Origin: Closterium sp. NIES-65
Lineage: Eukaryota; Streptophyta; Zygnematophyceae; Desmidiales; Closteriaceae
Direction: 5' to 3'
Assembly (NCBI GenBank): GCA_948144175.1
Contig: CANXME010002014.1
Span: forward strand, 551,188-615,187
DNA: 64,000 nucleotides
The position numbers and the translations under genes are program-made. The first letter of the stretch is position 1, and the number at the start of each line of letters is the position of its first letter. Of the stretch, positions 2,436 to 51,881 are shown one piece after another. The notes beneath the pieces were generated by a model. It was not told the DNA's origin. It did not search any database and saw nothing but the letters and a program-made list of their open reading frames with translations.

Positions 2436-2519
2436 ACGACCTGCCCTGCCTGGTGAGCACAGTCCCACTGACACTGCGAGCTCTTTCCCTGCTGCTTGCA
2501 CTGCGTCGCTGTCGTCGCC

Positions 2520-8351: not shown

Positions 8352-8454
8352 CTTCACTTGTACTGTGACATATATATATGCCTGCTCTTGTTTGTCTAGT
8401 TTTATATATATGTCTGTACTCCTGCATCTGAACTGGCCTCTGGCCCTACTCTTG

Positions 8455-8557: not shown

Positions 8558-8687
8558 TGTCAGATTTATATGACATAGTTTCTTTAGGCTATAGTGGGGT
8601 AGCACATATGGGGTACATGGTTTCTAGGGTTGTATTTGTACACAATCTTTCCTTAGTCATTCTCATTCCTGTTTTCTTTTCTCCACA
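8558..8687 (+). repeat. 3' LTR of element A
   Basis: 130 bp, identical to 1327-1456 but for one base. It starts TGTCAGATTT right after the conserved tail and ends CTCCACA. Confidence 0.93.
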
Positions 8688-10621: not shown

Positions 10622-12668
10622 ATGACTACTCTCAACGTTCTCACATTCGATCCTGAGGGCCTTCCGATCCAATTCGATATGTGGCTCGATGACTTACAGC
10701 TGTACCTGCTCAGCGATTGAGACAGAGTTTCATTGTTTGACCACACGTCTGGAGCCTCTCTCGCCCCTCCCGACAAAGTTAACAATGCGACTCGCTCACA
10801 GTGGCTTACCCGTGACGGTACTGCTCGCCTAGCCGTTCGCAACAACCTGCCGTTAGCCGAACGCGCTCATTTTGGCCAGCACAAGACTGCTAAAGCCCTA
10901 TACGACGCCGTAGTCGCTCGTTACTCCTCCCCTGCCACTGCTGCTCTTGGCCGCCTTATACTGCCCTACCTTTTACCCGAGCTGTCAGCTTTTGCCACAG
11001 TCGATGACCTCATCACCCACCTTCGCACTAGCGACACTCGCGACCGCGCCGCGCTTAAAGCCGGGTTCATAGACAAGAGCCCACCCCCGATGTACATCAC
11101 TCTCTACTTCATCGTCACATGCCTCCATGGCTCTCTTCGCATAGTCAGGGACCACTTTCTCGCCCTTGACCCCACAGACCTCATTGTCGACCTGCTCGAG
11201 GAGCGCCTTTTTGCAGCTGAGACTAGCATCAACGCTGTAGGTGCTTCTCGTGGCACTCCTTGCACTCCATTCTGAGGGGTATTCCCCCTTTCTTCTTGCC
11301 CCCTTTGTCGCATTTGCTAGTGTTGTTGACTTTCTTGGTGCTGAGGTGGTCGGAGTGTCAGAGGTCCACTGGTGATCCCCGATTGATCCTAGGGAAGGGT
11401 TACAGGCACGGTTGCCTGGGGGGTTATGGGCGCACTGACCCGCTACTTAAACAAGCCCTTTTATCCCAATGGTCTAGTGGTTGGGATTCTGAGACGGAGC
11501 TGCGTCTGTTCCTAGTGCGAGGCGCCGTGGCGGCAAGGGCAAGGGAGGCAAGGGTGGAGGGGGTGGCGGCGGTGGAGGCGGTGGTGGAGGCAGTGGAGGC
11601 GGTGGAGGTGGCGGTGGTGGCGGTGGGATTGGAGGCTTCGGTGGCGGCAGTTGTGGTAGCGGTGGGAGTGGTGGTGGCGGTGGTGGCAGCAGTGAGAGTT
11701 GTGGTGGCGGCAGTAGTGGTGGTCGGGGTGGAGCCGTTCAGAAAGGCGGTTCTGGTGGTGGCCAGAAGCAGCAGCGGCAGCGAAAGCGCGAGACCCTTAC
11801 GCCCCAGCACCTTCCTAAGTGGTTTGCTCAGTGTGGGGTGTTTGGGGGTATTGTTTGTTGCTCTACGTTATTCGCACAGGTGATCGGGCTGGTCAGACAT
11901 GCGGGAAGGTTGGTCACTCGGAGTACCGCTGCTTCTCCCATCTTGACGACGCCTGGCGTGCGAAGAGGGTGAGCTCCCCCGCTGGCGCGACCTGCTTAGG
12001 AACAATGTGGATATCTTTGCTCTTGACTTTGATGCTATCCTTGCTGGCATGTATGCTTTGACTATTAGAGCTGAGGGTGACTGTTACATGTATGTGCCGC
12101 CTAGCCTCTAGATGCTAGAGAGTTTGCTCTCTCTGGTACAGCGCCTGTTGAGGCCTTGCACACCTTCACGCTTGACTCCAGTCGTTCACGCTTCCGGAAT
12201 CCCCGCACAAGAATGGGATTGCTGCGCGCCGCATTGGCTTAGTCATGGAGGTGTCTCGTACTTCCATGATCCGTGCAGCTGCTCCCCATTTTCTGTGGCC
12301 GTATGTAGTCTGGTACGCTGCGAATCAGCTCAACCTCTGGCCCCGTGTCTCCTTGCCGAAGACCTCGCTGACACTGCGTTGGACTAGGGAGGTTGGCGAT
12401 GCGTCGGTGTTCGGGGTCTAGGGCTCTCGTGCCTTTGTCCGCAATACCTTCGCGGACAAGCACATTCGACGAGCTGGTTCCCTTAAACCGTCTCTTCCCC
12501 TACCGCACTGACCCTCTCCCCACTCTGCCACTCTTCCTCGCTCCAGGTCCCCCTCCGGTAGACCCTTTCCCCTCTTAGGGTCCTGCTCCTTCAGGTGTGT
12601 CTCAAGTGGACCCACTCCCCTTGGCTAAGCCTTTTGAGGTCACTTCCGACACCTCTGGCCCATCTAAG
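10622..12668 (+). pseudogene. Element B gag and 5' pol remnants
   Basis: Gag begins at 10622 (MTTLNVLTFD), related to the gag of A, and has an in-frame TGA at 10718. It runs to the stop after CTPF near 11275. After a frame change and the TRIM solo LTR, a Gly-rich linker and a knuckle follow in shifted frames (CGKVGHSEYRC near 11900). Near 12180 the protease stops inside LDS and joins directly to late integrase, so most of protease and the integrase core are deleted. A second deletion near 12465 removes the end of integrase. Clearly defective. Confidence 0.85.
11356..11494 (+). mobile_element. Solo LTR of the TRIM family
   Basis: 139 bp from TGTCAGAGG to CTGAGA, matching the LTRs of the complete TRIMs at 48176-48552 and 50317-50663. 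It is flanked by perfect 5-bp duplications CGGAG (11351-11355 and 11495-11499), so it is a true insertion reduced to one LTR by recombination. It interrupts the gag of element B. It contains the A-box-like TGGTCTAGTGG (11470-11480) and an upstream TTTT (11459-11462), but lacks the internal B box. Confidence 0.9.
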
Positions 12669-27632: not shown

Positions 27633-28724
27633 CTACCTTCCCGCTCCGACTCCCGTGCGTGCCACGTTGGTAATGTGATCCACTGCTCTTACCCCAGCCT
27701 CACTTTCCAGCACTAGCACCCCTGACTCTCGCACTTCCTTCACAGTCCAGCGTTGCTGTGACAGTCCCACATCAAGTCCATCCTTCTTAGGACGCCATAT
27801 GTACACCTCATGTCCCCGCTGTAGTGCCTGTGGCGCTCCGCTCGCCCTCTGCTCTTGTCGCTGCTTGTAGCGGTGTATGTCCCGTAGATGAGCCATGTGC
27901 AGACTCTCCAGGGCCGCTGGCAACAAGCGCCGCAAATACTCTCCCCTAACTGCCGCCAGTGTTGCCCACTTCTCCGCAGTGCCCACCGTAACCACATCTG
28001 TCAAAACTCGCAGGGCTCCCACCGGCAGAACTGCCTCTCGGCCAAAGAGAAGATGGTAGGGTGAGAGGTCCCTGAGTGCCGCCTGCTTGCTAAACCTGTA
28101 CCCCGCCATTATCCAGTGGAGTTGCCGGTCCCAGTCCCTCTTCCTTGTCTCTCCGTATGCATGCAGCCCGCGCTTCAGGGTCTGAATGAGCCGCTCCGTC
28201 AGGACATCGCTCTGCGGATAATACCTAGACGTCGTACGATGAGGAATTAGGCATGAGGCCGGTAGCTCCTCAAATCCCCCTTGGGACTCGATGCCCTGAT
28301 CTGTCAGCACTTCCCCACATGCTCCAAAGCGTGTTAGCACTTGTTCTTCAAAGGCCTCTGCCACTGCCTCAGATGCCTTGTGGCTTACTGCTTGCACCTC
28401 CACCCACTTGCTCACGTGCTCAATCATGACCACCACATACCGCAGCCCTCGCTTGGTTAAGGGTAGCTCTCCCGCCAAGTCCAGTGACCACCAATAGCCC
28501 AGCCCCACGACCGGCAGAGGCTGCAGCTCAGCCTTGCTCCTCTCAAATGCTGCTCGGTTCCTGATGCATGCCGGGCACCTGGCAACCCAGTCCTTGATCT
28601 CCCGACGCATCCCTGCCCACCACCATCCTGTCTGCATAAGTTGTTGTGTCCGTAGTGGGCTAAAGTGCCCCAGCTTGTTGTGCACTTCCTGTATCACTCC
28701 TTCTCTCTCCTTTGGTTCAGGCAC
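27633..28724 (-). pseudogene. Gypsy G integrase
   Basis: A 363-codon open segment at the C-terminus of the G polyprotein. The zinc-binding part has HNKLGH and CPAC (HHCC). The core has Asp in WSLDLAGEL, Asp in LTDQGIES and Glu in TERLIQTLKRG. The end, VDHITNVART, resembles the usual C-terminal region. A TAG near 28755 separates it from the upstream segment in the same frame. It would insert the reverse-transcribed DNA. Confidence 0.88.
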
Positions 28725-28859
28725 CCTCTTCCATCCATCCTGCGTCCTGATCTACCCCCTGCTTCGGGCCCTCACTGAGACCACCGCTCCTTCTGCAGTC
28801 TCTCCCCTTAGCCAAGCCAGCGTTTCCTGATCTTCCCATACATCCGTGGCTCCTGCCTG

Positions 28860-29348
28860 CTACTCCCTGTGCAGCGGTGTGACGGGATCTGTCACGAATG
28901 CTACCAGTGCCATCTCTGGCGCTACTGCCGGCGGATTCCTGGAGAGGCCGTCCACGTGCTGCATAGTTTTCCTCGGGCGATGACGAATGGTGAACTGGTA
29001 CTCTTGCAGCTTCATCGCCCACCTGGCGTTCCTCCCTGTAAGACTTTGGTTTTGCATCAGCCACAACAGCGGCTGGTGATCAGTGACCAGCGTGAAGGGC
29101 CGGCCTTGCAGGTACACACGGAAGTGCCCCACTGCCCATACTGCGGCGAGCCCCTCGCCCTCGTATGAAGAGTAATTAGCCTCCGCCGGGTTGCATGAAC
29201 GGCTGGCAAATGCCACGACCTTCTCCTCCCCTCCCTCCTGTTGGCTAAGGATGGTCCCCATGCCTGTGCTGCTCCAATCTGTGTAGAGCACGAAGGGTAT
29301 GTCTGCCCGCGGTAGCTGAAGCACTGCACCACTCTTTACCGCTCCCAT
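28860..29348 (-). pseudogene. Gypsy G RNase H
   Basis: RNase H domain of the Ty3 type, with FVLYTDWSSTGMGTIL, SYEGEGLAAVWAV and TDHQPLLWL supplying the expected Asp, Glu and Asp. In-frame TAG codons bound it at about 29367 and 28857. It would degrade the RNA strand during reverse transcription. Confidence 0.85.
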
Positions 29349-29369
29349 CAGATCCTTGAGGGCCGCCTT

Positions 29370-30606
29370 CTACTGCTCACCCCATTGCCATTTGACATTT
29401 TCCTTCAGCAGTTTGTTCAATGGCGCCCGCCCTCCTGCTGAAGCTCTGCGATAGTAGTTTAGAAACCCCAGCAGTGCCCTGAGCGCGCTTTTGTCCTTAG
29501 GTGGAGACACCTGGTCCAGAATAGCCACCTCCGCTTGCTGAATCGCCAATTTCCCTCCCGCCACTTCGAATCCCAAGTATGTCACCGCCGTGTGCCCGAA
29601 GCGACACTTCTTCGGGTGACAGGTCAGCCCTGCTTCTCTTATCCTTCGTAGTGCCTCAGCTAGGCGTTCCACATGCTCTTCTGGAGTAGTGCTGAACACT
29701 ATCACGTCGTCAATGTAGCACAGCGCCCCTTTCATCCCTCATAGAACCGCATCCATCACCTTCTGGAACAGCAGTGATGCATTCTTGAGGCCGAAAGGCA
29801 TTCGGTTCCACTCGTACGCGCCGTCCGGTCCGTGAATAGCCGTTTTTGCCTTGTCTGCCTCTGCAATAGGGATCTGGTTAAATCCCTGCCTCATGTCCAG
29901 CATGGAAAACACCCGTGCCTCCGCCAGCTGATCGAAGAGTTCATCCACCATCGGAGTAGAGTACCTTTCAGGGACAATCACCTTGTTCAGATCCCTGTAG
30001 CCGCCACACATGCGGCGCGCCAGCACTGTTCCCATGAGGTCCATCCTGGCAACCACTACCGTTGCTGCTGCGTACTTGGACTCTGACCGACGTATGAGCC
30101 CTGCCTCCAACAGTTCCAGGCATTTTTCCTTGCATATCTCCAGATCCTGCGGGCTAATTCGACACCTCCTCTGGTACACCAGTACCGTTGTAGTTAGCTC
30201 GAGTGTCATGACCGCACAGTTGCAGCATCCCAACTCCTTCAGCGAATAGGCAAACATCTGCCAATGTGACGCCAGCGGGGCTTCCACTACTTGCCGATGT
30301 TCCCCTTGCAATCCTTCTCCCACGTCCCATATACACTGCTCCTCTTCAGATCTTTCTGCCCTGTCTGTTATCCTCTCACTTGTCCTCCCATCCTCTGGTG
30401 TCTGCGGTCCTGCCTCGCTTGCTGTCGCGTCCAGCGCCATGAAAGCTGGCCCTACGGGTGGCCAGTCTGGTGGGTCGAAGTAGTCGTAGAATCCCTCCCC
30501 CTTGTCAAAGTCGGAGTCGTGAAACTCTTCCGGGGTGTCCCCTCTGCCCATCCCTGATTCTTCTTCCATCTCTTCTTCTGCCTCCTCTTCCCATCCTTCT
30601 TCACTC
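29370..30606 (-). pseudogene. Gypsy G reverse transcriptase
   Basis: An acidic N-terminal stretch leads into RT. Motif A is FSMLDMRQGFNQI, motif B is EWNRMPFGLKNA and the catalytic motif is CYIDDVIVFS. An in-frame TGA at 29736 splits motif B from the YIDD part; related elements usually encode Arg there, so CGA to TGA is likely. The upstream limit is an in-frame TAG near 30607. Fingers and palm motifs are otherwise preserved. Confidence 0.88.
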
Positions 30607-30656
30607 TACGGTGGGTCTGCATACCTCCCTGGTATAGCTTCCCTATCGTCCCTCTA

Positions 30657-31868
30657 GCTTGCGCGCCTGCGGTCTTCTGGAATTCCTCTCCACAACTGGT
30701 TCTCCTCTTTCTTATACAGCCCGCCCAGCATTGTCCTTGCCTCCATCTCCTTGTTTGCCGCCAACTGGGTCTGTGGCCTGATTGCAGTTGCCTTGCCGAT
30801 CCGCCTCTCTAGCCACCTCCTCTCTAGGTAGTTGGCCATGGTCATGAACAGCCATTGCAGCGCGTTCAGATCCATTGCTCTGCCTAGTGCCGCCTTCCTG
30901 TCCTTCTCCGTCATCTGCTCACAGGCCGTTGCGCCTGCCAAGAAGCCCATAGCCAGCTCCCTCTCCTGTGCGGTTGGCTCTTCCCACACCCCGCGCGCCT
31001 GATCATACACCATGCCCGGTCCGGCTACTCCTCCCACTTCCTTGAAGCCCCTTGCATTTTCATGCGCCACCAGTGTCGGCCACACCTGTCGTGGCTCTCC
31101 TACTTTGTTGCAGGGGTATTGCGTGGGGTGGTCCGCCTCCGTGACTGGTGCTGCCAGCCTTCCTGGTTCCAAAATATCCTCCACCCTTCTTGCCCTCGGT
31201 CGCTCCAACCGTGATAGCTCATACCTGAGCGCCGCCTCAGGTACTACGTTCTGCCAATACCTCCTTGGTCGGTGCGCTCTGCTCCCGTTTTGCGCCGCAT
31301 CCCATGCCACTCCTGCCCCCAGTTCTTTGGTGATTTCCTCGTTGGCGGCCCGTATCGCCGGCCGTGGGTTGTCGGCCATGTCCACATTCTTGATGATATA
31401 AGCCACCTCCCCTTGCCTTCTCTTGATCATCTTCAGCACTCGCACCAGGTCTCGGAATTGAGCACTCCGTGCATCTCCCATGCCTTGGCCTCTCCCCGCT
31501 CGCGAAAGTCCCTGGCAGCTCCAACCTGCGACCACTAGATCGATTCTTCCCCATTGCGCCAACATGCCATCGTCGATCTCCTCCACTCTGCTGCATAGCC
31601 ATTCCGCTCCTCTCTCTGCGGCTTCCTCCATTAACTGCTCGTGATACCTAGCTTTTAGCACCTTGAGGTGATGCCAGGCCATCAGGTTCGCGTCACCGTC
31701 ATTGTCCACATACAGACATTTGGCTACAGTGTGTCCCGATTTCAGCACCGCCGCCAGTCCAGTGGCTATTCCCCCATATAGCTCCAGTATGACCAGCGGC
31801 TTCTGTAGCGCCCTCAGGTTCAGGACCGGTTCCCGCAGGTTGTCGCTGGTTCCCCAGATCTCTTCGTA
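30657..31868 (-). pseudogene. C5-cytosine DNA methyltransferase domain in gypsy pol
   Basis: An open segment of 404 codons lies between in-frame TAGs at 31869 and 30654. Conserved C5-methyltransferase motifs occur in order. Motif I is LELYGGIATGL (about 31795-31755), the S-adenosylmethionine site. Motif IV is GWSCQGLS (about 31536-31506) with the catalytic Cys; Ser replaces the usual Pro before it. Motif VI is YIIKNVDM (about 31402-31380), where Lys stands in place of the usual Glu of ENV. Motif VIII is RAHRPRRYW (about 31285-31260). A target-recognition region and a motif X-like helix (LQWLFMTMANYLERR, about 30860-30820) complete it. The element presumably used it to methylate its own or host DNA; as preserved, the Lys in motif VI and the flanking stops argue against activity. 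Confidence 0.85.
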
Positions 31869-31871
31869 CTA

Positions 31872-32345
31872 CTTCCGTGCCGGCTCCGTCTGCCCCATTT
31901 CCTTCCAATTCATGACACCCAGCTCTTCTTCTAGCGGTTTCCCCACGGCTTGATAGGCCTCCCTTGGTTCCCGTCTGATGAACCGCACTGGTAACTCGGC
32001 CAGCTCGCTGTCATGTTCCCAATAGGTCACTCGGTACAGCAGCCATTCCTCCCACATGCAGATGGTGGTACCGATGGCAAACAGGTACTCCACCCCTAGC
32101 AGTAGATCGTAATCTTCATACGTAGACACTCCGTAGTGCATGCGCACTATACATTCGTCCTGATGCCCGGGTCGTATCACTATCTCCACCGTGTAGCGGG
32201 TCTTCGGCATCCATTTCGCCGTACCCCCCTCTGCAGTCATCAGCAAGTAACCTTCAGGTACCACTCTGTCCTCCCTATCCAAGCCTAGCAGCCTGGCCGT
32301 GGGCGCACCAATCAGCACGTTGTGAGCTCCTGAATTGCCTGCTTG
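31872..32345 (-). pseudogene. Gypsy G retropepsin-like protease
   Basis: NSGAHNVLIG followed by APTARLLGL fits the plant gypsy protease motif DSGA..N.I, with Asn in place of the catalytic Asp. YDLLLGVEYL further on matches the second conserved part (D.ILG...L). The upstream frame change coincides with the active-site motif, so a small indel near 32345 has hit it. It would process the polyprotein. Confidence 0.65.
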
Positions 32346-33878
32346 ACTTTCACGCCGCCCATGCTCATCACTCCTGGCTCCACCACCAACACTGACGGCT
32401 GACTTGCCATCCTCTCCAAAGGGTGACGTCGTGCTGCCCCCGCCGTTCTTGCATGCGTAGTATCCCTCCTCGGTCCTCGCTCCTGTACTGGTGTTTCTTG
32501 TGGAAAGTAGCGGTGTCGCGCTCGTAGCCCGAGTTCCCCCCTCTCCCGCACCGGACGTGCCATCAGAGCAAAGCTGGCCTCGCTCCCCTCCTCGTCTTCT
32601 TCCTCCGACCTCGCCAACATTGGCGTCCCCTTTTGCTCTGGTCCTTCCATCTCCTCCAGTTGTCGCTGCAGTCGGGCAATTTGCGCTTTCATTTCCTGCG
32701 GATCCTTCCTTGTCCATCCTTCCCTCCTAGTGGCGTAGAAGTCCTTCCCTTGATGCCCCTTCCTTCCGCAATGATCGCATACTGGTGCATCCGGGCAATC
32801 CCTCCTCAGGTGCTCTTCGCTTCCGCAGGTGGAGCATGCTGGTGGGTTGTGACACTCCCTTTGCAGATGCCCTATATGACCGCAGTTGTGGCAGCGCCGT
32901 TCATCTCCTGCCCTGCGTGGTGGTTTCTCCCTTTCCGCCGGCGTCGCCGCCCAGGCAGGCCTCCTTCGCTCCCCTCCTTTCTCTATTGTCGTTTCGATCT
33001 CACATAGCCGACGGCCAATCTCCACCTGCTTCACCACCTCGTAGACCTCCTTCAGCGTGGTTTGTGCCCCCATCTCGAAAATCATGACCGCCACATCTCG
33101 CTGTAGTTTGTAGTGCAGCCTGTTCAGGAACTTGCTAACCAGCCGACTTGTGTCATGACAGCTCATGTCTTCTGCCAATTCCACCAGTCTACCGTAGCAC
33201 GCAAGTAGCGATTCTCCCGTTCGGCGGCGAAATTACCGAAATTCTGCTATCCGCTCCGGTGTCTGCGCTGGGAATTGATCTTCAAGCATCCGCAGGAAGC
33301 GCGTCGTGGGATCTCACTCTCCCGGTGCCTCCCGAGCGGTCCATTCAAGCAGCTCTCTTCGGCTGAGGCGATAGAAGGTTTTCGCTTCTCCGGTTAGAGT
33401 GTTGGCGAGCCCCCTGAAGAACTCTTCTGGGTCTAACTGATCTCTCTCCCACCTCGCCCGCAAGTTGTCCAACTGCATCACGTGGTTCTTGATCGTCGGT
33501 CCCCGTCGTGTATCCCCAGAGAAGCGCTCTGGGACTTCAAATTTCGGCAGCAGCGTGTATTTCCACCGCTGCACGAACGCCTCCTCTTGCCACGACACAC
33601 TTCTCTGGTAAGAGCCTGTCGAACGCTCTTCTCCCACAGTGCGCATCGGTCTTCCTCCCTACCGCACATCCTTCCTTGCTGCTCTGCCGGTTCCCTTGCC
33701 TTCGCCTTCCGGCCGATCTAATTTTCTCCGAGTCCCGCTTGGGCGAACCATCATCGCGGGAATCCTCTTTCCTCATATCCTTTCCTTGATTCATCCTTCC
33801 GGTCTTCCCCGTCGCCTCAGCCTCCGCGTTTGCGTTCTCGTCTTCCAATCCGTACTCCGTCCCTCCTCGCGTACGCAT
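32346..33878 (-). pseudogene. Gypsy G gag with three zinc knuckles
   Basis: Gag starts at the ATG at 33876-33878 (MRTRGG) with a charged N-terminus, changes frame near 33650, and contains a retrotransposon gag domain (RFSGDTRRG and FFRGLANTLTGEAKTFY), an in-frame TGA near 33312 and a TAA near 33235. The C-terminus carries the knuckles CHNCGHIGHLQREC and CSTCGSEEHLRRDC, and a third (CDHCGRKGHQGKDF) whose final Cys is Phe. It would form the particle and bind RNA. Confidence 0.8.
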
Positions 33879-41356: not shown

Positions 41357-41457
41357 GTACAACCGAACACTTTCGGGCTTCGCACGTCCGTCCGACATCC
41401 ACGATTCTGAGGCTGCCTCGCGTCGCCTTCAATTTTCACTTCGCCAAGCCTGCACCC
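41357..41457. other. Host DNA between C and E
   Basis: 101 bases of non-repeat sequence ending in CACCC, the left copy of the E target duplication. With E removed it is contiguous with 51882 onward, upstream of the GT92 gene. Confidence 0.7.
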
Positions 41458-41894
41458 TGTTGGGCTGAGAAAGCCCTTAAGGATCTTTGCAGAGGATGAC
41501 TCTGGGTAAGAAACTTTGTAATAGCAGAAGCGTTTAATGAAACTTGTGAACCGACCTTGCGCTAGTGTGTGAGAGCAAAGTGGATTAAATTAAACAAGCA
41601 AAGACAAAGTTTTATATAAGAGTACAGGAAATACGAATGGATAGATAACTGTATTTGCTGTTGCGATTCGATACAGTGCGACTCGGGCAACTGCTCTGTA
41701 ACGAGTCAGTTGTGTGTCCTTAACTGTCGCGCTGTAATTGTCAAGTCAAAGGTCGCTGACCTTTGACTTTCCCGTAACCTCCAGGCGGTTACCCTAACCT
41801 CCGAGGTTTGACTCGATGCTTCTATTCGGACTGCTTCGCTAGTGTCTTGGGTTTTGACACGACAGAAGCGCACTAAGACTTATTGTTTCCAACA
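41458..41894 (-). repeat. 3' LTR of element E
   Basis: Sense TGTTGGAAACAATAAG...CTCAGCCCAACA. It supplies the polyprotein stop codon TAG (41873-41875). It is preceded in sense by the purine-rich GAAGCGAAGGGGAG (41895-41908), the likely polypurine tract. Confidence 0.95.
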
Positions 41895-44464
41895 CTCCCC
41901 TTCGCTTCTAGAGTGTCGCCGCAGGTGACGTGGCCTTGTCCAGTCAGCAGCATGCAGTATTCGAACTTCTGCTTTCCGAGCTTCTTGGTCAAGTAATCGG
42001 CTGCCATCTCAGACGTGGGACAGTATGACAGATCGAGTTTCCCCTTTTCGATCTCGTCCTTCACGAAGAAATAGCGCAGGGCGATGTGTTTCGTCCTGTT
42101 TGCGAAGCCGTTCTTGTTGGCGATGCGAATTGCTGACTGGTTGTCGCAGAACACGGTGAAGCTGGGTAACTCGGCTAACTTCGCTTCTTCCAGCAGTTTG
42201 CGAAGGTAAAGTCCCTCCTTGGTGGCTGAGCAGAGTGCAATATATTCCGCTTCAGCTGAAGACAGTGCGATTAACTCCTGCTTACTCGACTGCCAGGAGA
42301 TAGGACCGATAGGCTCGAGGCGGTAGACATAGCCGGTGCGTGAGCGCCTGTTATCGGTGTCGGCGGCGTGATCGGCGTCGACGTAGCCGATTAGCTTGGT
42401 CGGTGTAGTTGCGTTTTTGTGATAAGTTAATCCGATCGTCGCGGTGCTGACGAAATAGTGGAGAGCGCGATCGAGTTCCGCCAGATGCTCTGCTTCAGGC
42501 TTCTTGAGATAAGTGGCGAGCTGGCTCGCGGAGTAGGATAAGTCGGGACGGCGTGTGACTGCTGCGAAGAGAAGACATCCGAGCTTCTTCTGATAGTCGC
42601 GTATGCCGGCGGGCTTGAGTAGGGTAGATCGTCCCTTTTCGGTTCCTGACGTGTAGCGGTAAGGCGTGGAGATGGCGCTTGGTGTGAGGCTGAAGCGTTT
42701 CGCGATGGTGTCGGCGTACTTCTCGGCGCTTAGATAGATTGCGTTTTCTTCCTCGCGGATGTTGAGCCCGAGGTACTGCGTAACGGTAGAAGAGACCGTG
42801 AGCGTGAGGTCTTTCTGAAGCTCCCCTTCAAACCACGTGGCGATGCCGTCGGTTGACCCAATGTAGAGGAGATCGTCCACGTAGACGATTAGGAGAACGT
42901 AGTCACTTCCCTTTGTGAGGCGATACATGCCCTGGTCATGCGGGAGTTGTTTGAAACCGATGCGAATGAGGCGGGCGTGTAGGTACTGCTGCCACAGTCG
43001 CGGTGCCTGCTTGATCCCGTAGAGCGACTTAAGCAGTTGACAGACTCGGTTGGGTTCGCCGTGGGAGCCGTGCGGGAGCTCGACGAAGATTTCTGCATCC
43101 ACAGGTGCGTATAGAAATGCGTTTGCGACGTCGATTTGTCGCAGTTTCTTTTTCTTCATGGCGGCGACGGCGATGAGGATTCGGAGTGAGGTGTGACGGC
43201 TGACCGGAGCGAAGGTTTCGGTGTAATCTCTTCCGTGCTCCTGGTCAAAGCCGCGTACGACCCAGCGAGCTTTGAATTTGTCGATGGTGCCGTCAGCTTT
43301 CGTCTTCACACGGAAGACCCACTTTCCGGTAAGGATAGTCTTGTTTTGTGCTACGCCGATGGGAACGATTTTCCAGGTGTTGCGCTCCTCCAGTGCCTTC
43401 AGCTCTTTGTCCATGGCTTCACGCCATTTCTCCTTATGTTCCCCCCCCAGAGCCTGTTGAACCGTCGCAGGCTCCTTAGGAATGGCGGCGCCATGGACTG
43501 CGGTGACGAGACCAAGGATTTGCAGCCCAGTCTGTGAGTATCGAGAGAGTTCTGGATCCTCGGGATAAGCTGCTTCGTCTCCCGCTTCTGGGTCGGGTAT
43601 GAAATTTGGCCCTACCCTTTCTGCTTCGTTGGTGTTGACTGTCGCAGGTGTTACGTAACCATTGTCGGCGAAATGGTAGAAGACTTCGGCGTTGTTACTG
43701 TCGCGAGGATTATCCTCATCCATGGGCACGTCGACGGAGCAGTACGGAAGAGGTCCGGCTTCCTCCGATGCGTTGTCGACGTTCTGCTCATCCCAGTCTG
43801 CTTCATCCGCTGCTGACGCGAAGGCTCGGTCACCACGAAAGCCACTGGTGAGGTCCCGATTCTCGGGCAAGTTGGCGAGGTACGTCTGAAAGGTGAGTCG
43901 TTCGTAGAAGATCACATCTCGTGCTGCTACTGTTTCTTTTGTGTGGACGTCGAAGATTCTCCACGCGTTGTAATTTTTCTCGATGCCGAGGTGTAGTCCC
44001 CACTGTGCCCGTTGTGAAAATCTTCCCGCTCGTGCTTCTGGGGGTCTGTACTGTACCATGCACCCGAAGACTCGTAACATTTTTGTGCTGCCCTGCTTCC
44101 CTGTCCACAGCAGATGCGGTGATGCGTTGTTCGGGAGTGACGACGACGACAACAAGTTGTGCAGCATGACAGCATGGTCCATTGCTGCTGGCCACTGGTG
44201 GTTGGGTAGCCGCATGCCACGTAACAGTTTGCGCATGCTGTTCTGCAGGGTCCTGTTCATTCTTTCTGCAACACCTTGCTGCTGATGTGCGTAGGGAAGG
44301 GAGAGGAGTTGCTTGATCCCCCTTTCCGTCAGGAACTGCTTGAAGCGCTGAGAGGTGTACTCGCCACCTCCGTCTGACTGGAAGCTTTTCAGTTGTGTTC
44401 CAGACTCTCTCTCTGCTATCGGTAGCCAGGCGGCGAATGCTGCGAGTGCCATGTCGCGGCTGGG
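41873..44464 (-). CDS. Element E pol, C-terminal segment
   Basis: It continues the E polyprotein downstream of the D insertion. It holds the integrase core with Asp in SFQSDGGGEY and Glu in QQGVAERMNRT, a charged linker, RT with VVRGFDQEHGRDYTETFAPV, QIDVANAFLYAP and IVYVDDLLYIG, and RNase H with YVDADHAAD, SSAEAEYIAL and FCDNQSAIRIANK. The frame ends at the TAG inside the 3' LTR. All catalytic residues seen are intact. On its own this fragment lacks gag, protease and the first integrase Asp, which lie beyond D at higher coordinates. Confidence 0.9.
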   Translation of the reverse strand, partial: PSRDMALAAFAAWLPIAERESGTQLKSFQSDGGGEYTSQRFKQFLTERGIKQLLSLPYAHQQQGVAERMNRTLQNSMRKLLRGMRLPNHQWPAAMDHAVMLHNLLSSSSLPNNASPHLLWTGKQGSTKMLRVFGCMVQYRPPEARAGRFSQRAQWGLHLGIEKNYNAWRIFDVHTKETVAARDVIFYERLTFQTYLANLPENRDLTSGFRGDRAFASAADEADWDEQNVDNASEEAGPLPYCSVDVPMDEDNPRDSNNAEVFYHFADNGYVTPATVNTNEAERVGPNFIPDPEAGDEAAYPEDPELSRYSQTGLQILGLVTAVHGAAIPKEPATVQQALGGEHKEKWREAMDKELKALEERNTWKIVPIGVAQNKTILTGKWVFRVKTKADGTIDKFKARWVVRGFDQEHGRDYTETFAPVSRHTSLRILIAVAAMKKKKLRQIDVANAFLYAPVDAEIFVELPHGSHGEPNRVCQLLKSLYGIKQAPRLWQQYLHARLIRIGFKQLPHDQGMYRLTKGSDYVLLIVYVDDLLYIGSTDGIATWFEGELQKDLTLTVSSTVTQYLGLNIREEENAIYLSAEKYADTIAKRFSLTPSAISTPYRYTSGTEKGRSTLLKPAGIRDYQKKLGCLLFAAVTRRPDLSYSASQLATYLKKPEAEHLAELDRALHYFVSTATIGLTYHKNATTPTKLIGYVDADHAADTDNRRSRTGYVYRLEPIGPISWQSSKQELIALSSAEAEYIALCSATKEGLYLRKLLEEAKLAELPSFTVFCDNQSAIRIANKNGFANRTKHIALRYFFVKDEIEKGKLDLSYCPTSEMAADYLTKKLGKQKFEYCMLLTGQGHVTCGDTLEAKGSVGNNKS

Positions 44465-44469
44465 TAGAT

Positions 44470-44603
44470 TGAGAAGAAGTGAACGAGAGAATCAGTGAAC
44501 TATGAACGAAGTGAGTACAAATAGGAAACCCTAACTGGGTTGTACCCCCTATGGGATACCCCACTATAGCCTACACAAATGAGTAAGCTATAATGTTCTG
44601 ACA
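44470..44603 (-). repeat. 3' LTR of element D
   Basis: Sense TGTCAGAACATTATAGCTTACTC...TTCTTCTCA. It contains an exact telo-box AAACCCTAA on the plus strand. The tail hairpin CCCCCATAGGCAAAGTGGGGG lies at 44605 onward. Confidence 0.94.
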
Positions 44604-44816
44604 CACCCCCATAGGCAAAGTGGGGGAGAACAAGGGGTCACAAGACCAGTCAAGTAAAGAAAAGCAAAGCTCAGGGTGGATCACAAAGTCACCACACATT
44701 CCGAGCACAAGTTCAAAAGGCCAGAAGGCCAGTTCACATGCAAGATCATATATAAAGATATACAAGAGTCAAGCAAGTAAGAGCAAGAGTATATATAGGT
44801 GAAGGTACAAGCAAGG

Positions 44817-47282
44817 TCAAGAAGTGAGCAAGTGAGGCAAGACAGACACAAGACCCAACTGCGTGCAACAACGCTGATGATCACAAGGCGCAAGTGCCTT
44901 AGTGAAGACATCAGCAGTGTTGGCCTCAGAGGCCACGTACGCAAGTCGCAACTGTCCACGCTGCTGCAGCTCACGAGCAAGAAAGTAGCGGAGGGCAATG
45001 TGCTTCGTTCTGTGCTCCAGTCGCTGCTCTCGACACAAGGCCAGCATGGCCTTGTTGTCTACGTACAGGACTGGAGGAGAACGAGGCTACTCTCCAAGGT
45101 CGGTCAGCAGGTAGGTGAGCCAGCATAACTCCTGTGCAGCCATAGCCCCAGCGTAGATCTCAGCCTCACAACTGGAGCCGAGAACAGAAGACGAGCGGGT
45201 AGCCCGCCACGAAACAGAGCCGGAACCAAGGCTGAAGGTGTAACCCTGTGACGACCGCTGCGTAGCCTGGTCGTCAGCCCAAGAAGCGTCTGCGTGCCCA
45301 GTGAGGACCACTGGACTGCGCCCTCCAAGCACTAGCCCCATGCCCGACGTACTGCACAAGTAGCGCAACACCCTCTTCGCTGCAGCCATGTGCTCTGGTC
45401 AGTGTCTCCCAGGAGCAACATAGCGTGCGAGAATGCTAAGAGGGTATGCAAGGTCAGGACGTGTGCAGGTCATCAAGTACATGAGGCAGCCAACAAGCTC
45501 TGCAAACGGGCCACTCGACTCTACCGACTCATCCGAAGGCAGAGCTGAGAGCGAGTGGCGAGTAGGCAGAGGAGTGGCCTGAGGCGAGGAGTACGTGAAG
45601 CCGAAGCGCTGAAGGACCTGCTGCACCATGTGTGACTGAGTCAGGGTAATGGTGCGGCGCGCTCTGTCCCGGGTGATCTGCAAGCCAAGGTAGCTACGCA
45701 GTTCACCCAGGTCAGTGCACGTATGTCTCTTCTGCAGCTCGGACTTCACGTAGGCGAGTCCAGCAGTGTCAGCTGTGGCAAAGACCAAGTCGTCGACGTA
45801 CACGAGGATGTAGAACGGCGACAGAGAGGTGTCGGTGCGCAGAAACAGCGACGGGTCAGCAGTAGACGGAGCAAACCCAAGTGCCGCGAGCGTAGTCCTC
45901 AGTGTGTCGTGCCACTCACGTGGCGCCTGGCGGAGACCGTAGACTGGACGCCGGAGACTCCACTGGGTACCAGGAGGGAAAGATCTAGTGAAGCCAGGTG
46001 GGCGACGCAGCCAGATCTCCTCGTGCAGGCTGCCCTGTAAGAAAGCTGTGCTGAAGTCGAGAGAGTGCAGCTCGTAGTCACGGTGAGCAGCAACGTGTAG
46101 CAGAACCCGAAGAGTGGTCATCTTCGGGGTGGGGGAGAAGGTCTGAAAGTAGTCAACCCCCTGCCGCTGACTGAAGCCACGAGCCACGTAACGCGCCTTG
46201 AAGACAGGCGGAGAACCCGGCGGCCGCTTCACCCTGAAAATCCACATGCCACTGACGATGTTCGCCCCAGGAGGGGGAACAGCGTCGACGTAGGTGCCTG
46301 TGGACTTCCAGGAAGCCATCTCTGCATCCATAGCTGCCTACCACTGAGAGGAGTAGGGACCCTCTATCGCCTCCGCGTAAGAGCGCGGAGTCGGGATGTC
46401 TGGTGCATCCGGGTCTCCCTCAGGGGCTAGCAGTACAGACGCGAGATGAGGTGAAGCGGCGGCCAGACACTGGAACTCCTCCTGCCTGTCCTCAAGGACG
46501 TCCGTGCCGAGGGCACACTCACCCCCGACGGACGGAGGACAGGCAGACTCAGACTCAGCGACAAGACTGGCAGCGTAGTCGAGACGACAGCGCGCAGCAA
46601 AGTCGACAAGCTCAGTGACAAGGGCAGACGCAGCAGACGACTCGAAGGAAGGGTCAGTGACAGCAGTAGCAAGGAGACGCGTGACAGTAGGACTGGCAGC
46701 ACGAAGAGAGTCCGACTCCGGGTCGGCAAGAGCAGGAAGAGAGGAAGCAGGAGGAGAAGGCAAAGGGGCACGCAGAGGAGCAGTGGACGGACGTAGTGAC
46801 ATCCGGTGCGTGCCAGGGACAGGAGGAGGACGCTGACGCGACCCGCGACCACTAGCGCGCTCAGTACGAACAGGCGACGCAGGACGAGACGCAGGCTCAC
46901 GACGCTCAGTAAGACCTCTAGTCGGACCAGCGTAGGGAGAAGGAGCAGGCAAAGGGGAGGCAGGCTGTAGCTGTGGCTGTGACTGGACAGGCTGTGGACC
47001 CTCTAAGGGAGGAGGAGGAGGTGTAAGACCAAGAACCTGCTGTAGGAGCGGAACGAAGTACGGTCGGGGCTGCGCGGCGACGCCAGAAACAGCAGGAACA
47101 GCACTAGTACCCCCAGCAGGAGCACCCACTCCAGCAGCTCCAGCAAATTTAATAACTACACTACAGCTAGAACTACATGCAGTTATAATAAATATAATTC
47201 TGACATCCCCCCGTAACTGCATGCAGGAATAGCTAAGTGCCGAGCACAACCTGCAGAGGTACACCAACGAGCAATAAAACAA
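44817..47282 (-). pseudogene. Element D linker-RT-RNase H
   Basis: Three same-frame blocks. 47282-46338 is the linker and pre-RT region (RPYFVPLLQQVLGL). 46331-45399 is RT with LDFSTAFLQ and YVDD. 45389-44817 is RNase H with ADASW and YVDNKAML. Breaks: TAG at 46338, where paralogues have CAG (SSQWQAAMD); TGA near 45396, where they have Arg; and TAG near 45090. Gag, protease and integrase are absent, and the N-terminus (about 47282-47150) is foreign sequence read through by chance. Confidence 0.87.
47150..47222 (-). repeat. Truncated LTR of another element inside D
   Basis: Sense strand reads GGGGGGATGTCAGAATTATAT and continues with a TGCATGTAGTTCTAGCTGTAG stretch before joining D's linker. 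A G-run then TGTCAGAAT looks like a polypurine tract and LTR start, so D is a chimera formed by template switching or deletion. Confidence 0.55.
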
Positions 47283-47299
47283 GCAACAGCAGGTACTGC

Positions 47300-47989
47300 A
47301 GGCGGGCTAACTTTGAAAGGTTACCCCCTCCATCTCCTCACCCTCCTCCTTCCCCTCCCCCACACTGCTGCAGAAGCAGCAGAGAAGGGGGGAAGAGAGG
47401 AGAGGTGGAGGGACGGCTGCTTGTTGCCTCACACCCGCCCCCCCGGTACCACTCCCCCTGCTCACCCACATCCTCACACCCTCCCCCCCTAGCGGCAGCT
47501 GCAGCGGTGGGACTGAAAGAAGGAGGAGGGGAAGGGAGAGAGTTGACCCCACGCTCCAACACCCTCCACCCCCATACCCTCCTCCCCACGGCTGCAGGGA
47601 GACAAGAGAAAGGGGGGGGTGGGAAGGAAGAAAGCCGCAGAGCGGCGAAGAGGCGTCGGTGCAGATGGGTCAGGGGCGGCAGCAAGGAGTGCAGGGGCGG
47701 AAAGGCCCGTCGCGGGCCAGTGCCACGGGGCGCACGACGGGTAGGATAAAAGGGCCCGATCGTGTGCCTCGGGGCGCACGACGAGCAGGGCACCATCGTG
47801 TGCCTCGGGGCGCACGATGGGCAGATAAAGGGCACCGTCGCCTGCCACGGGGCGCGCGACGGGCAGGGTAGGAGTCACACGCCCGTGGGCGGGACAAGGT
47901 AAAGAATAAAATCGTCACGCGCCCTAGGCGCGCGACCGTAAAATTTTAGCAGCGGAAGTAAAGCGGGCCCACAGGCCAGGACGAACTCA
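47300..47989 (-). repeat. GC-rich leader of element D
   Basis: Includes three to four units with GTGCCTCGGGGCGCACGA (about 47720-47870), related to repeats in the leaders of K and F. No gene. Confidence 0.6.
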
Positions 47990-48001
47990 GCTCCGATAAC
48001 A
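47990..48001 (-). promoter_or_regulatory. Primer binding site of element D
   Basis: Sense TGTTATCGGAGC directly after the LTR; two mismatches to TGGTATCAGAGC. Confidence 0.75.
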
Positions 48002-48135
48002 TGTGAAGAAGTGAACGAGAGAATCAGTGAACTATGAACGAAGTGAGTACAAATAGGAAACCCTAACTGGGTTGTACCCCCTATGGGATACCCCACTATA
48101 GCCTACACAAATGAGTAAGCTATAATGTTCTGACA
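48002..48135 (-). repeat. 5' LTR of element D
   Basis: It pairs with 44470-44603, with one mismatch at 48004/44472. Confidence 0.94.
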
Positions 48136-48175
48136 TAGATTGCGATGCCAGACGTATCGAGTGGCAGCGTTGATG

Positions 48176-48552
48176 TGTCAGAGTCCCAACCACTAGACCA
48201 TTGGGATAAAAGGGCTTGTTTCAGTAGCGGGTCAGTGCGCCCATAACCCCCCAGGCAAACGTGCATGTAACCCCCCCTAAGATCGATCGGGGATCTCACA
48301 GTGTAGCTCTACTGACACCCCCCCACACTGGGAGGCCCAGGACTGAGGACAGTGGCAACGGCCAACATGTGCATACACCGGGATTCGAACCCGAGACCGC
48401 TCTTATACCATGTCAGAGTCCCAACCACTAGACCATTGAGATAAAAGGGCTTGTTTCAGTAGCGGGTCAGTGCGCCCATAACCCCCCAGGCAAACGTGCC
48501 TGTAACCCCCCCTAAGATCGATCGGGGATCTCACAGTGTAGCTCTACTGACA
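48176..48552 (-). mobile_element. TRIM element, copy 1 (377 bp)
   Basis: Two 142-bp LTRs (48176-48317, 48411-48552) differ at two bases, start TGTCAG and end TCTGACA in sense, and enclose 93 bases. The interior begins with TGGTATAAGAGC (48399-48410), a tRNA-Met-type primer site, and ends with a seven-G polypurine tract. Flanks TGATG (48171-48175) and CGATG (48553-48557) are a target duplication with one change. An A-box-like TGGTCTAGTGG (minus strand, 48425-48435) near the LTR end and a perfect B box GGTTCGAATCC (48381-48391) inside form a tRNA-like Pol III promoter pair. It interrupts the E integrase. It has no coding capacity. Confidence 0.92.
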
Positions 48553-50311
48553 CGATGAAGGTGATGGTGTAGTTGTAGGTGACTTGTCCGGGTTCGCGAT
48601 TGTAGAGGATGTCGCTGTAGACCTTTTTGAGTGGTGCGTACGCTGGAGCGCTCGGGTTGTGATGTGGAGCGAACGGTCGATGAGGTAAGTCAGCTTCGGG
48701 GCATAGAAGGCAAGTCCCTCGTGCCTTCTGGAGTTCTCTGCCATCGGGTAGAAGTAGGGAGTCTTTGTCAAGAACTCCTGCTCTTATCGTGTTATTTAAA
48801 ACCGTGTTGCTTGGATGTCCTGTGCGTGCGTGCCAGATCTCTTCAGAGGCGCGGTGTCCGGGTGAACGTTGGTATGCGTCGAAGTTGGAGTAAAAACTGG
48901 CGACGAAGTTGGCGCTTCGGTGGACTTCGCGTTGGGTCGGATTCAGCTGTTGTGCGGGTGTTGGTGGTGCTTCGTCGACTGTGACTGGTGTCGTTGTTCC
49001 TGCTGCTGCTGATGTTGTCGCTGCTCCCGATGTTGTTGCTGCTGCTGCCGATGTTGTCTCTGCTTCTGTTGTTTGTTGAATCGTCGCTAACGCTCGTGTT
49101 CGTTCTGCTTCAGGGATAGTGTGGGAGTACCAAAAACCTCCCGGGCTGAAGTCGGGGTCGAGATCTGGAGGGTGTGTCCAGTCAGTAAAATTCACGATGG
49201 CGTCGCTGTCTGTAGTGCCCAGGTCAGGAACGAAGTCGAGGACGAAGACGTTGTTCTTCAGCACTGCCTTCCCGATGTAGAGGCCGCCTCTCCCGTGGTA
49301 TAGCTTGAACTCCTGGGTGGTGCTGTCGGCTTCCAGGTGAATCCCTTTCGCCATCAGCTGGCTAACACTCAGTAAGTTGTAGCCGAGTCCTTCAGCGATG
49401 AGTACCTTTGACATGTGCAGTATGACATTTGTTTCTCTTGACTGAAGCTGTACCACTCCTTGTCGTCGTGTGCGCAGGTTTTGATTGTTGGCGACCGTGA
49501 TGATCACTTCTCGTTGGAGTCGATGTTCGCGTTGTACGAAGCGCCCGGACGAGCACATGTGTTGCCCGCAGCAACTATCCAAGAACCAAGTGTCTTGGCC
49601 GGACGGTTCACTTTGAGCGATGGCGGCGTAAGTCGGATTTGGGTGGAGTGATTCGCGACGAGGCGTCCTGTTATCGAGCTCCTCTTCTGGTGAGTAATGG
49701 GGTGGTGACTCTGTTATGCAAGAATCGTTTATCTTTACCATGCAGTTGACTATGTTTCTTGCTCCTTGTGCAGGTTGTCCAGTTGAAGTCGTTGAAGCTT
49801 GAATCGTTGTTGTCGGACTTGCTTGCGTTGAAGCAACTTGTGAGCTTGAAGGCCGCAGTTGTCGCTGTGGTGTTGTCTGACGAGACGGGCAATGCGTGCG
49901 TGGGTGTCCTGATGTCTTGCAGATGTGACAAAACGGAGGTACTGGCTTCGGCTGTTGCTGTCGGTTGTTGTAGTTGTTGTGTCGTCGTTGAATATGGAAA
50001 GCGAACTCCGGTGCTAATGCCCTTTTCTTGTGCCTTTCTTCTTGCAGGTCCATATCCTGCTGCTCGGCGTGGATTTCGGCGCAGAGTGCCGCTTCGGAGA
50101 TCCTCCCGTGTGCTCGAAGAATTGCTTTGGTGGCGCGCCACTGAGGACCGAGGCCACCGATGACGACTGTTACGAAGGCGTCTTCAGAGATTGATCCTCC
50201 GCATCGAAGAAGCTTGTCGCGCAATTCGCGACATCGGCTGATATACGCCAACCCCTTTTCTCCTAGTTTCATTTCAACTGTTGTCAACTGCGCCATTAAC
50301 CTGCTCTGGTT
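48553..50311 (-). CDS. Element E gag end, protease and integrase start
   Basis: Middle part of the E polyprotein between TRIM copies 2 and 1. It contains the rest of the UBN2-type gag (SRLMAQLTTVEMKLGEKGL), a classical knuckle CHICKTSGHPRTHC, a protease motif WFLDSCCGQHM in which Cys stands where Gly is expected (usual DSG), the GAG-pre-integrase HARTGHPSN, and the integrase start with Asp in VYSDILYN and TITFID just at the TRIM 1 site. The protease change could be lineage-specific or inactivating. Confidence 0.88.
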
Positions 50312-50316
50312 TACAC

Positions 50317-50663
50317 TCTCAGAATCCCAACCACTAGACCATTGGGATAAAAGGGCTTGTTTCAGTAGCGGGTCAGTGCGCCCATAACCCCCCAGGCAAA
50401 CGTGCCTGTAACCCTTCCCTAGGATCGATCGGGGATCACCAGTGGACCTCTGACACCCCCCCGCACTGGGATGCCCGAAGTGCATACACCGGGATTCGAA
50501 CCCGAGACCTTCGCTCTGATACTATCTCAGAATCCCAACCACTAGACCATTGGGATAAAAGGGCTTGTTTCAGTAGCGGGTCAGTGCGCCCATAACCCCC
50601 CAGGCAAACGTGCCTGTAACCCTTCCCTAGGATCGATCGGGGATCACCAGTGGACCTCTGACA
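50317..50663 (-). mobile_element. TRIM element, copy 2 (347 bp)
   Basis: Two 139-bp LTRs (50317-50455, 50525-50663), identical as far as I can see, with perfect TACAC duplications (50312-50316, 50664-50668) and a 69-base interior. Sense order: 5' LTR at the right, primer site TAGTATCAGAGC (50513-50524), B box GGTTCGAATCC (50492-50502), then a run of seven G before the 3' LTR. The A-box-like TGGTCTAGTGG is at 50539-50549, 36 bases before the B box. TCTGA/TCAGA across the LTR junction can form a 5-bp stem with a 7-base loop, as in an anticodon arm. Identical LTRs imply a very recent insertion. Confidence 0.94.
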
Positions 50664-51383
50664 TACACTGTCTGTTGCCTGATACAGGTTCTTCAGATGG
50701 CCGTACGCGAGTTCCGCCGAGTTGCCGAAGTTCCGGTAAGAGCGAATGTTCTGCTGCTGAGTTGGTGTGATGTTTCTCAGTAGAATAGTATATGCCATCA
50801 TCGATTGATACGTATACTGCTGCTTCTCATACTGTGTGCCGTTTGCTGGATACTGCAGGGATCCGTCGAAGAAGCCGAGTATCTGCGCGCCCTCCATCAT
50901 CAGCTCGAATTCAAAGGACCAGGTGAAGAAGTCCTTTCCGTCGAAAGGTCTTGATGTTTGCAGTTTCAGGACATGCGCGAATTGCGACTGAACTTGTAAA
51001 GCGTCCATTGGTTTGTCTTGCGCAGGTGAAGGTTGAGGCAGGAAGCTGATCGACCCGCGCTCGTACGGGGCGAAGGTGGGTTGCTGCTGTTGATTCCCTC
51101 GCGCATATGACGACCCGTCAAGGCTCATGGGTGTTGCTCCGTTGTTGCTGTTGTGTGTCTGTGCAGGTCCCGACTGCTGGTGTTGCTCGTAGAAGGACAT
51201 GAAGGAGAAGAATTTCTCCATCATGCTCTGGTCGAAGTCAGAAGGATGGTTCGTGGGGGTCTCGGTTGACGTTCCCCTTGGTCTTGCTGCCGTGCCTTCC
51301 TCTGTCTGCAGGCCAGAGGCTGGCGGTGGAGTAGTAGTGCCCGAGGAGCCATTAGGGGAGCTCCTTTCCTTCTTTGTTGCCAT
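50664..51383 (-). CDS. Element E gag, N-terminal segment
   Basis: The E polyprotein starts at ATG 51381-51383 (MATKKERSSP), 45 bases after the primer site region. It has a low-complexity Ser/Thr/Pro/Gln-rich N-terminus followed by the UBN2-like gag domain (LKLQTSRPFDGKDFFTWSFE). The segment ends at the TRIM 2 site after the codons for DSV; the next codon in 50311 restores the frame exactly. Confidence 0.88.
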
Positions 51384-51427
51384 GTCTTGTAATGATCTTA
51401 AAAAAAAGTTAGAGTTTTCCCCTGTCA

Positions 51428-51439
51428 GCTCTCATACCA
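51428..51439 (-). promoter_or_regulatory. Primer binding site of element E
   Basis: Sense TGGTATGAGAGC directly after the 5' LTR; one mismatch to the initiator tRNA-Met site. Confidence 0.85.
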
Positions 51440-51876
51440 TGTTGGGCTGAGAAAGCCCTTAAGGATCTTTGCAGAGGGTGACTCTGGGTAAGAAACTTTG
51501 TAATAGCGGAAGCGTTTAATGAAACTTGTGAACCGACCTTGCGCTAGTGTGTGAGAGCAAAGTGGATTAAATTAAACAAGCAAATACAAAGTTTTATATA
51601 AGAGTACAGGAAATACGAATGGATAGATAACTGTATTTGCTGTTGCGATTCGATACAGTGCGACTCGGGCAACTGCTCTGTAACGAGTCAGTTGTGTGCC
51701 CTTAACTGTCGCGCTGTAATTGTCGAGTCAAAGGTCGCTGACCTTTGACTTTCCCGTAACCTCCAGGCGGTTACCCTAACCTCCGAGGTTTGACTCGATG
51801 CTTCGATTCGGACTGCTTCGCTAGTGTCTTGGGTTTTGACACGACAGAAGCGCACTAAGACTTATTGTTTCCAACA
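51440..51876 (-). repeat. 5' LTR of element E
   Basis: 437 bp, pairing with 41458-41894. A TATA box (CTTATATAAAAC in sense, about 51590-51602) lies in its central part and points leftward, away from the GT92 gene. A near-perfect inverted repeat around AAAGGTCGCTGACCTTT is near 51727-51750. Confidence 0.95.
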
Positions 51877-51881
51877 CACCC

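Follow-up and report, generated by a model that had tools for sequence, protein, structure and literature searches.

The stretch of DNA analysed here, 64,000 nucleotides in length and referred to below as the window, contains a member (E1) of a real, young, high-copy family of TRIM retrotransposons in which a tRNA-type promoter is split by the LTR border, with the A box in the LTR and the B box in the interior. Our preferred explanation, to which we assign a probability of roughly 0.6, is that E1 is a Copia-mobilised TRIM whose RNA would be produced by Pol III from a type-2 promoter lying across the junction of the 5' LTR and the interior.

E1 occupies positions 50317-50663 on the minus strand and consists of a 139-bp LTR, a 69-bp interior and a second 139-bp LTR that is identical to the first over all 139 bp (Table 1). 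An earlier, sequence-only reading of this DNA had described a 347-bp element with identical 139-bp LTRs and TACAC duplications, and this description is borne out at 50312-50668, as is its assignment of the A box to the LTR, of the B box, at a distance of 36 nt, to the 69-bp interior, and of a TCTGA/TCAGA stem with a 7-nt loop to the LTR/interior border, which the stem spans. The primer site and the G7 tract that it reported are also present; the primer site, which is presumably of the initiator tRNA-Met type, carries in E1 (TAGTATCAGAGC) a single mismatch to TGGTATCAGAGC. In seven other loci found with E1 as the query (L002-L008), TGG stands at the mismatch position and the primer site is TGGTATCAGAGC; judging from these copies, the mismatched A looks private to E1. 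E1 has the features by which TRIMs are recognised: two LTRs, a total length of less than 1 kb, too short for retrotransposon proteins, a primer site after the 5' LTR, a polypurine tract before the 3' LTR, and short target site duplications of fixed length. The features that define SINEs, i.e., absence of LTRs and target-primed insertion, are not found. The T4 of the 5' LTR directly precedes tRNA-like position 1.

Table 1. Features of E1 and of related elements in the window (strand "." where none applies)
Feature	Position	Strand	Remarks
E1, target site duplication TACAC, low-coordinate copy	50312-50316	.	
E1, target site duplication TACAC, high-coordinate copy	50664-50668	.	
E1, 5' LTR, 139 bp	50525-50663	-	TGTCAGA...TTCTGAGA; identical to 3' LTR
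E1, CAA triplet, predicted Pol III start site	50565-50567	-	9-11 nt upstream of tRNA-like position 1
E1, T4 in 5' LTR	50557-50560	-	end of predicted R repeat AAGCCCTTTT
E1, U5 hairpin, 7 bp	50532-50556	-	ATCCCAA / TTGGGAT; A box in loop
E1, A box TGGTCTAGTGG	50539-50549	-	bases 15-25 back from 5' LTR end
E1, interior, 69 bp	50456-50524	-	
E1, primer binding site TAGTATCAGAGC	50513-50524	-	core GTATCAGAGC at 50522-50513
E1, B box GGTTCGAATCC, in interior	50492-50502	-	36 nt from A box
E1, polypurine tract G7	50456-50462	-	adjoins 3' LTR
E1, 3' LTR, 139 bp	50317-50455	-	
E1, T4 in 3' LTR, predicted Pol III terminator	50349-50352	-	
E2, second full copy, 377 bp, 93-bp interior	48176-48552	-	flanks CATCG/CATCA
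E2, A box	48435-48425	-	
E2, B box	48391-48381	-	
Solo LTR	11356-11494	+	97.8% identical to E1 LTR; CGGAG on both sides
Element with 446-bp LTRs	41454-51881	-	LTRs 41454-41899, 51436-51881; Copia-like by translation
Short-LTR Copia, candidate helper type	1327-8687	+	RVT_2 and integrase core; LTRs 130 bp, TGTCAGA...CCACA
Related short-LTR element	44470-48135	-	134-bp LTRs, TGTCAGA...TTCACA / TTCTCA; ATCTA duplications

The occurrence of the two boxes was compared with a null model of 100 first-order Markov sequences of 64 kb. Strict pairs of A and B boxes were found in the window exactly twice, both times in TRIMs (48435/48391 and 50549/50502), versus a mean of 0.01 in the Markov sequences; for the B box alone, there are 2 occurrences versus 0.53 expected. 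In the whole assembly (874 Mb, 2400 contigs), a pattern that combined the primer site, up to 12 nt and the B box yielded 1069 forward and 1098 reverse exact matches, 2167 altogether, and the same pattern read backward yielded none in either orientation. The LTR, A-box and primer-site/B-box patterns had no matches in collections of viral and prokaryotic contigs, a result that says nothing of other eukaryotes.

We then used a sample of 70 loci (L009-L038 and L089-L128), taken from the first 74 of the 2167 matches; two places already present in the E1 and E2 searches were omitted, and two tandem partners share a locus. It should be noted that the sample was selected for the exact primer site and B box, and that near-identical neighbours in it (L012/L013, L103-L105, L115/L116) are not independent. 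A TRIM U5 lies upstream of the primer site in 58 of the 70 loci, and these copies have a consensus A box in 55 cases (the exact one in 47), T4 in 55 and CAA in 50. The gap between the A and B boxes in the 55 copies is 36 nt in 31, 33 nt in 22, 35 nt in one and 37 nt in one; the usual spacing is given as 30-40 bp (PMC7279448). The layout with split boxes at the spacing of tRNA genes, as claimed from E1 alone, is a recurrent one: all but two of the 55 copies have one of the two common gap lengths, 36 and 33 nt. In a set of 59 distinct junctions with a TRIM U5, T4 is found 56 times, CAA and a consensus A box 54 times each, and a consensus B box 57 times; because possession of a B box was in part a criterion for entering the set, the last figure is biased.

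The second full copy in the window, E2, belongs to another subfamily. A block of 30 nt around the B box is exactly common to E1 and E2, and beyond this block the interiors are distinguished by a 27-nt indel and substitutions. A possible hairpin was noticed by eye in the interior, GCACT/AGTGC in E1 and GCACA/TGTGC in E2-type copies, which would represent a compensated change between the subfamilies. Both E1 and E2 lie inside the element with 446-bp LTRs, a nest of insertions that has also received a short-LTR element; all the insertions are oriented alike. Elsewhere in the window, a frame at 27633-33232 (minus strand) has integrase domains of the Gypsy type (Integrase_H2C2, 60.1 bits; rve, 32.3 bits with a cut-off of 32.6), and a weak match to PF00145 (C-5 cytosine DNA methylase; 21.3 bits, cut-off 22) was found near it; judging from this match, the retrotransposon at 27633-33232 may carry a DNA methyltransferase.

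The family is large, and its copies bear the marks of recent retrotransposition. With E1 as the query, 42 matches at 99-100% identity were obtained in the assembly from the 40 scored of 1133 candidates, and with E2, 41 matches at 97-100% from the 40 scored of 1743 candidates. We collected 128 loci, 48 from the E1, E2 and pattern searches and 80 further ones. Of these, 113 have at least two full TRIM LTRs, and they show a perfect 5-bp duplication in 98 cases and one with at most one mismatch in 103, with 84 distinct sequences; the duplication count is somewhat inflated because two loci entered twice (L030 = L067, L038 = L064) and each of 12 duplication sequences is found at two or three loci, some of which are perhaps allelic or segmental. 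The base counts of the 98 perfect duplications do not point to a strong target motif; the last base is A in 7 of them. Identical LTRs were found in 53 of 107 plain two-LTR elements; this share reflects in part the E1 and E2 searches, which favour young copies, and amounts to 9 of 49 in the pattern sample. Six loci carry runs of three or four full LTRs. The LTRs end in CA in 72 and in GA in 39 of 113 rows, with GA in the loci from the E1 search and CA in those from the E2 search. The GA-ending LTRs of the young E1 subfamily (L001-L008, L049-L068) have perfect duplications in nearly all copies, L061 being without one. A translated LTR query matched 19 proteins, all from Closterium sp. NIES-53 or NIES-54, and a second query with one of these proteins gave 67 matches, again all from NIES-53 and NIES-54; both searches reach only relatives that share short exact words. 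We take the host to be most probably a Closterium alga; NIES-54 is classified in the Zygnematophyceae, order Desmidiales.

From these sequence features we infer the use of Pol III, the ends of the RNA, the helper enzymes and the identity of the primer as follows. E1 would be one of the young copies of a high-copy TRIM family that short-LTR Copias of the same genome mobilise in trans. Pol III would start at the CAA of the 5' LTR (about 50566), proceed via the primer site, the B box, the interior and the 3' LTR, and stop at the T4 of the 3' LTR (50349). In plant tRNA genes, CAA triplets within ~10 nt upstream are described as start sites and T runs of at least 4 as stops (PMC11700998). The predicted RNA, 218 nt in length, would be bounded at both ends by a 10-nt R repeat (AAGCCCTTTT), which would serve strand transfer; between the repeats would lie U5 containing the A box, then the primer site, B box, G7 and U3. 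Copia reverse transcriptase and integrase, with initiator tRNA-Met as the primer, would rebuild both LTRs and insert the product with a 5-bp duplication. Because the A box is in U5, it is copied into both LTRs, while the B box is not duplicated. Solo LTRs and 3' LTRs hold only the A box, and the complete promoter exists only at the junction of the 5' LTR and the interior; in tandem arrays it would be found at each such junction. It should be noted that T4 within the first 10 nt of the predicted RNA might hinder early elongation.

The alternative that survives best, which we nevertheless regard as rather unlikely, is an ordinary Pol II TRIM that is transcribed from U3, as in the Copia helpers, the boxes being relics of an origin from a tRNA or SINE. 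TRIMs without Pol III promoters are the canonical kind (as presented in PMC10886601). In favour of this alternative, the boxes are no more conserved than their neighbours in the LTR. We aligned 82 distinct junctions (122 columns), counting a variant when it was common to at least four copies, and compared the functional columns (CAA, T4, A box, primer site, B box) with all others. Shared variants occur in 4 of 41 functional versus 14 of 81 other columns (p = 0.42), and in the LTR part alone, which was not selected by the sampling, in 3 of 18 versus 11 of 62 (p = 1.0). The second half of the interior alone stands out, varying between subfamilies in 17 of 23 columns. Greater conservation of the boxes than of neighbouring bases had been suggested as a check, and the absence of an excess (p = 0.42) neither refutes nor supports the Pol III reading. 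In the NIES-53 and NIES-54 translations (80 aligned stretches), the six B-box codons are 95-100% conserved and the next three 77-86%; the three codons of the A-box core are 92-98% conserved and the following codon 64%. Just after this core, Thr replaces Val in 12 of 44 translations, which would alter the last base of the A box. The absent conservation excess, the Thr variants and the 12 of 70 pattern-sample loci without a TRIM U5 are points against our preferred explanation. Against the Pol II alternative, 55 of the 58 sampled copies with a TRIM U5 carry a correctly spaced consensus A box, and CAA and T4 are in register in 54 and 56 of the 59 distinct junctions.

A second alternative holds that the A and B box sequences are kept as RNA, for a U5 hairpin or an extra contact with the primer tRNA, and do not act as a promoter. 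We examined the folds in a set of 36 distinct junctions, picked for diversity from the 59, with column shuffles and slid versions of each structure serving as null models. In the U5 hairpin around the A box, 98.0% of cells are paired in the 36 sequences, and its covariation score was reached by 0 of 500 shuffles and by no slid version. Six cells are changed on both sides; the further pair types are not unusual (441/500). Of 121 distinct elements, 114 retain intact arms, four of them via compensated changes, and seven have broken ones. RNAalifold recovers the hairpin and not the cloverleaf, and when the predicted E1 RNA is folded as a single sequence, the hairpin and the TCTGA/TCAGA stem both form; this RNA is not unusually stable (z = -0.68, with 48 of 200 shuffles folding equally well). 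Given that relatedness alone can yield such covariation results, we consider the U5 hairpin modestly supported, i.e., likely and not proven. The covariation of the hairpin and its intact arms are what the RNA alternative can call upon. Against it, the compensated changes are confined to four elements and seven elements break a pair, and the T-stem pairs of a cloverleaf are not kept, while the B box fits the TFIIIC consensus. An RNA-structure element in place of a promoter is, in our estimate, improbable.

The sequence-only reading had also given the primer site a second role, as one part of a tRNA-like fold, and this was not supported. When the cloverleaf is imposed on the 36 junctions, 95.4% of cells are paired, versus 28.7-63.9% in slid controls; column shuffles give 95.1%. 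Neither pairing nor covariation is better than in the column shuffles (observed values reached by 75 to 238 of 500); for covariation the number is 75, and one slid version scores higher (0.054 vs. 0.038). The T-stem pair 54-68 is broken in 11 of the 36 junctions. Folding with a covariance model, another proposed check, gave 15.6-19.9 bits with RF00005, all below the cut-off of 29 bits (E1, 15.6; E2, 18.0; L126, 19.9; L124, 19.3, the last two being the loci with a listed match among 20 examined). ARAGORN predicts no tRNA gene in the window, and E1 lacks the cloverleaf at the Rfam cut-off by which a functional tRNA gene would be recognised. A tRNA-like cloverleaf across the LTR/primer-site junction was rejected, since its pairing and covariation are not above those of column shuffles. 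The TCTGA/TCAGA stem also follows from two other constraints, the sequence of the LTR termini (TGTCAGA...TCTGACA) and base pairing with the primer tRNA. We also weighed, without adopting it, an origin of the B box in read-through of the primer, by which the complement of the primer tRNA's T arm would have been copied; by eye, neither the spacing nor the indels fit.

It is highly improbable that the B box is a bare TFIIIC site used for chromatin placement or choice of integration site and not for transcription: the B box is better conserved than the A box in the NIES-53 and NIES-54 translations, in favour of this reading, but the A box, CAA and T4 accompany it in most sampled copies with a TRIM U5, and the 98 perfect duplications have no strong target motif (last-base A, 7/98).

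The likely helpers of the family, judging from chimeras and a shared LTR start, are the short-LTR Copias. The short-LTR elements of the window have LTRs of 130-136 bp that start with TGTCAGA or a variant and end in CA; the start TGTCAGA is common to the TRIM and the short-LTR Copias, and the elements carry degenerate versions of the TRIM primer site. The element at 44470-48135 has a 2246-nt inverted match of 92% to that at 1327-8687. In the LTR and leader stretches of the four short-LTR Copias in the window, neither a consensus A box nor a consensus B box was found; thus, the TRIM boxes were not inherited from these four.

Contact between the two kinds of elements is recorded in DNA as chimeras, found among the 12 pattern-sample loci in which the TRIM primer site has no TRIM U5 upstream. 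Three of them (L014, L032, L100), and a further junction in L012 that is outside the 12, have the order Copia LTR, TRIM interior, TRIM LTR, Copia primer site and leader. On visual inspection, L014 and L032 share their leader type with the Copia at 1327, and L012 and L100 with the element at 35704. The layout of L037 is similar; in L123, the first bases alone of the TRIM 3' LTR are kept; loci without a recognised TRIM U5 also include L010, L027, L035, L115/L116 and L122. A TRIM unit located exactly at the border of Copia LTR and primer site is the outcome expected of transfers between two cDNAs that have this site in common; recombination between DNA copies is an alternative origin of the chimeras. 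L015 has a hybrid LTR, in which the TRIM U3 up to ...CTACACAAAACA is followed by a Copia-like U5 without an A box; it is a single case, present twice in one array (~1383-1498 and 1805-1920, 96.6% over 116 bp). The breakpoint coincides with the CAA predicted as the RNA start, and the existence of two copies of an LTR without an A box is a point against our preferred explanation.

A more speculative extension, which we hold to be possible and somewhat doubtful, is that the element has a self-limiting design, in which RNA production, primer binding and the LTR boundary would all be set by one 70-bp module and a solo LTR would lose the B box. Such a module could have arisen from an RNA with a tRNA promoter in which a Copia primer site took the place of the anticodon arm, the 5' half automatically becoming LTR.

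Among known systems, there is one direct precedent, represented by Helenus, Ajax and the term TRIMp3 (Kojima 2024, PMC10886601). Helenus is described there as a non-autonomous LTR element of 311-1263 bp with tRNA-type boxes, a primer site and a polypurine tract; it has 5-bp duplications in fungi and plants, and Copia is its likely mover in fungi. Helenus-1_SMo of Selaginella is similar to E1 in size (LTR 120, interior 85). According to this description, the tRNA-derived sequence of Helenus lies in the LTRs, whereas the B box of E1 is in the interior and the primer site stands between the boxes; by this definition both boxes belong inside the LTR, and E1 instead repeats the A box in its two LTRs and has one B box, in the interior. 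Cassandra resembles E1 in having a Pol III promoter in a TRIM, with a start in the 5' LTR, a stop in the 3' LTR and a short terminal repeat, of 18 bp in Cassandra (PMC10886601); the search pattern in PMC7215508 uses the same TGGTATCAGAGC primer site, and tandem LTR-interior arrays are also described for Cassandra. Cassandra differs in that its LTR has a 5S rRNA promoter and no tRNA-type boxes. The tRNA-derived SINEs share with E1 the type-2 promoter with A and B boxes, short length and lack of autonomy; they differ in having neither LTRs nor a primer site and in being mobilised by non-LTR elements (PMC10886601). SMART and other canonical TRIMs are similar in size and LTRs, and SMART is Copia-dependent; in the account of PMC10886601, they are not credited with a Pol III promoter.

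The layout had been called unfamiliar, and this is correct in part: a class of TRIMs with a tRNA promoter is in print (Helenus, PMC10886601), and neither a splitting of boxes by a primer site nor a Closterium TRIM turns up in the titles and abstract openings of the open-licence literature surveyed. Passages of the Closterium genome paper (PMC10407611) mention neither, and its main text is without the words LTR and Copia. The E1 family has Pol III promoter motifs within the element, as TRIMp3 requires, with one of the two boxes in the LTR; it fits the idea of TRIMp3 and not the published definition of Helenus. What is new is that the primer site splits the promoter, and the family would seem to be a variant, so far undescribed, of a class that was described recently. 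If our explanation is correct, a Pol III promoter can be divided between the LTR and the interior of a retrotransposon without loss of the R repeat, which a CAA start and a T4 stop in the LTR preserve, and solo LTRs are predicted to be silent. A TRIMp3 could then be built in two ways, with the promoter either wholly in the LTR or divided in this manner, and the split form would suggest a route by which an RNA with a tRNA promoter could become an LTR element.
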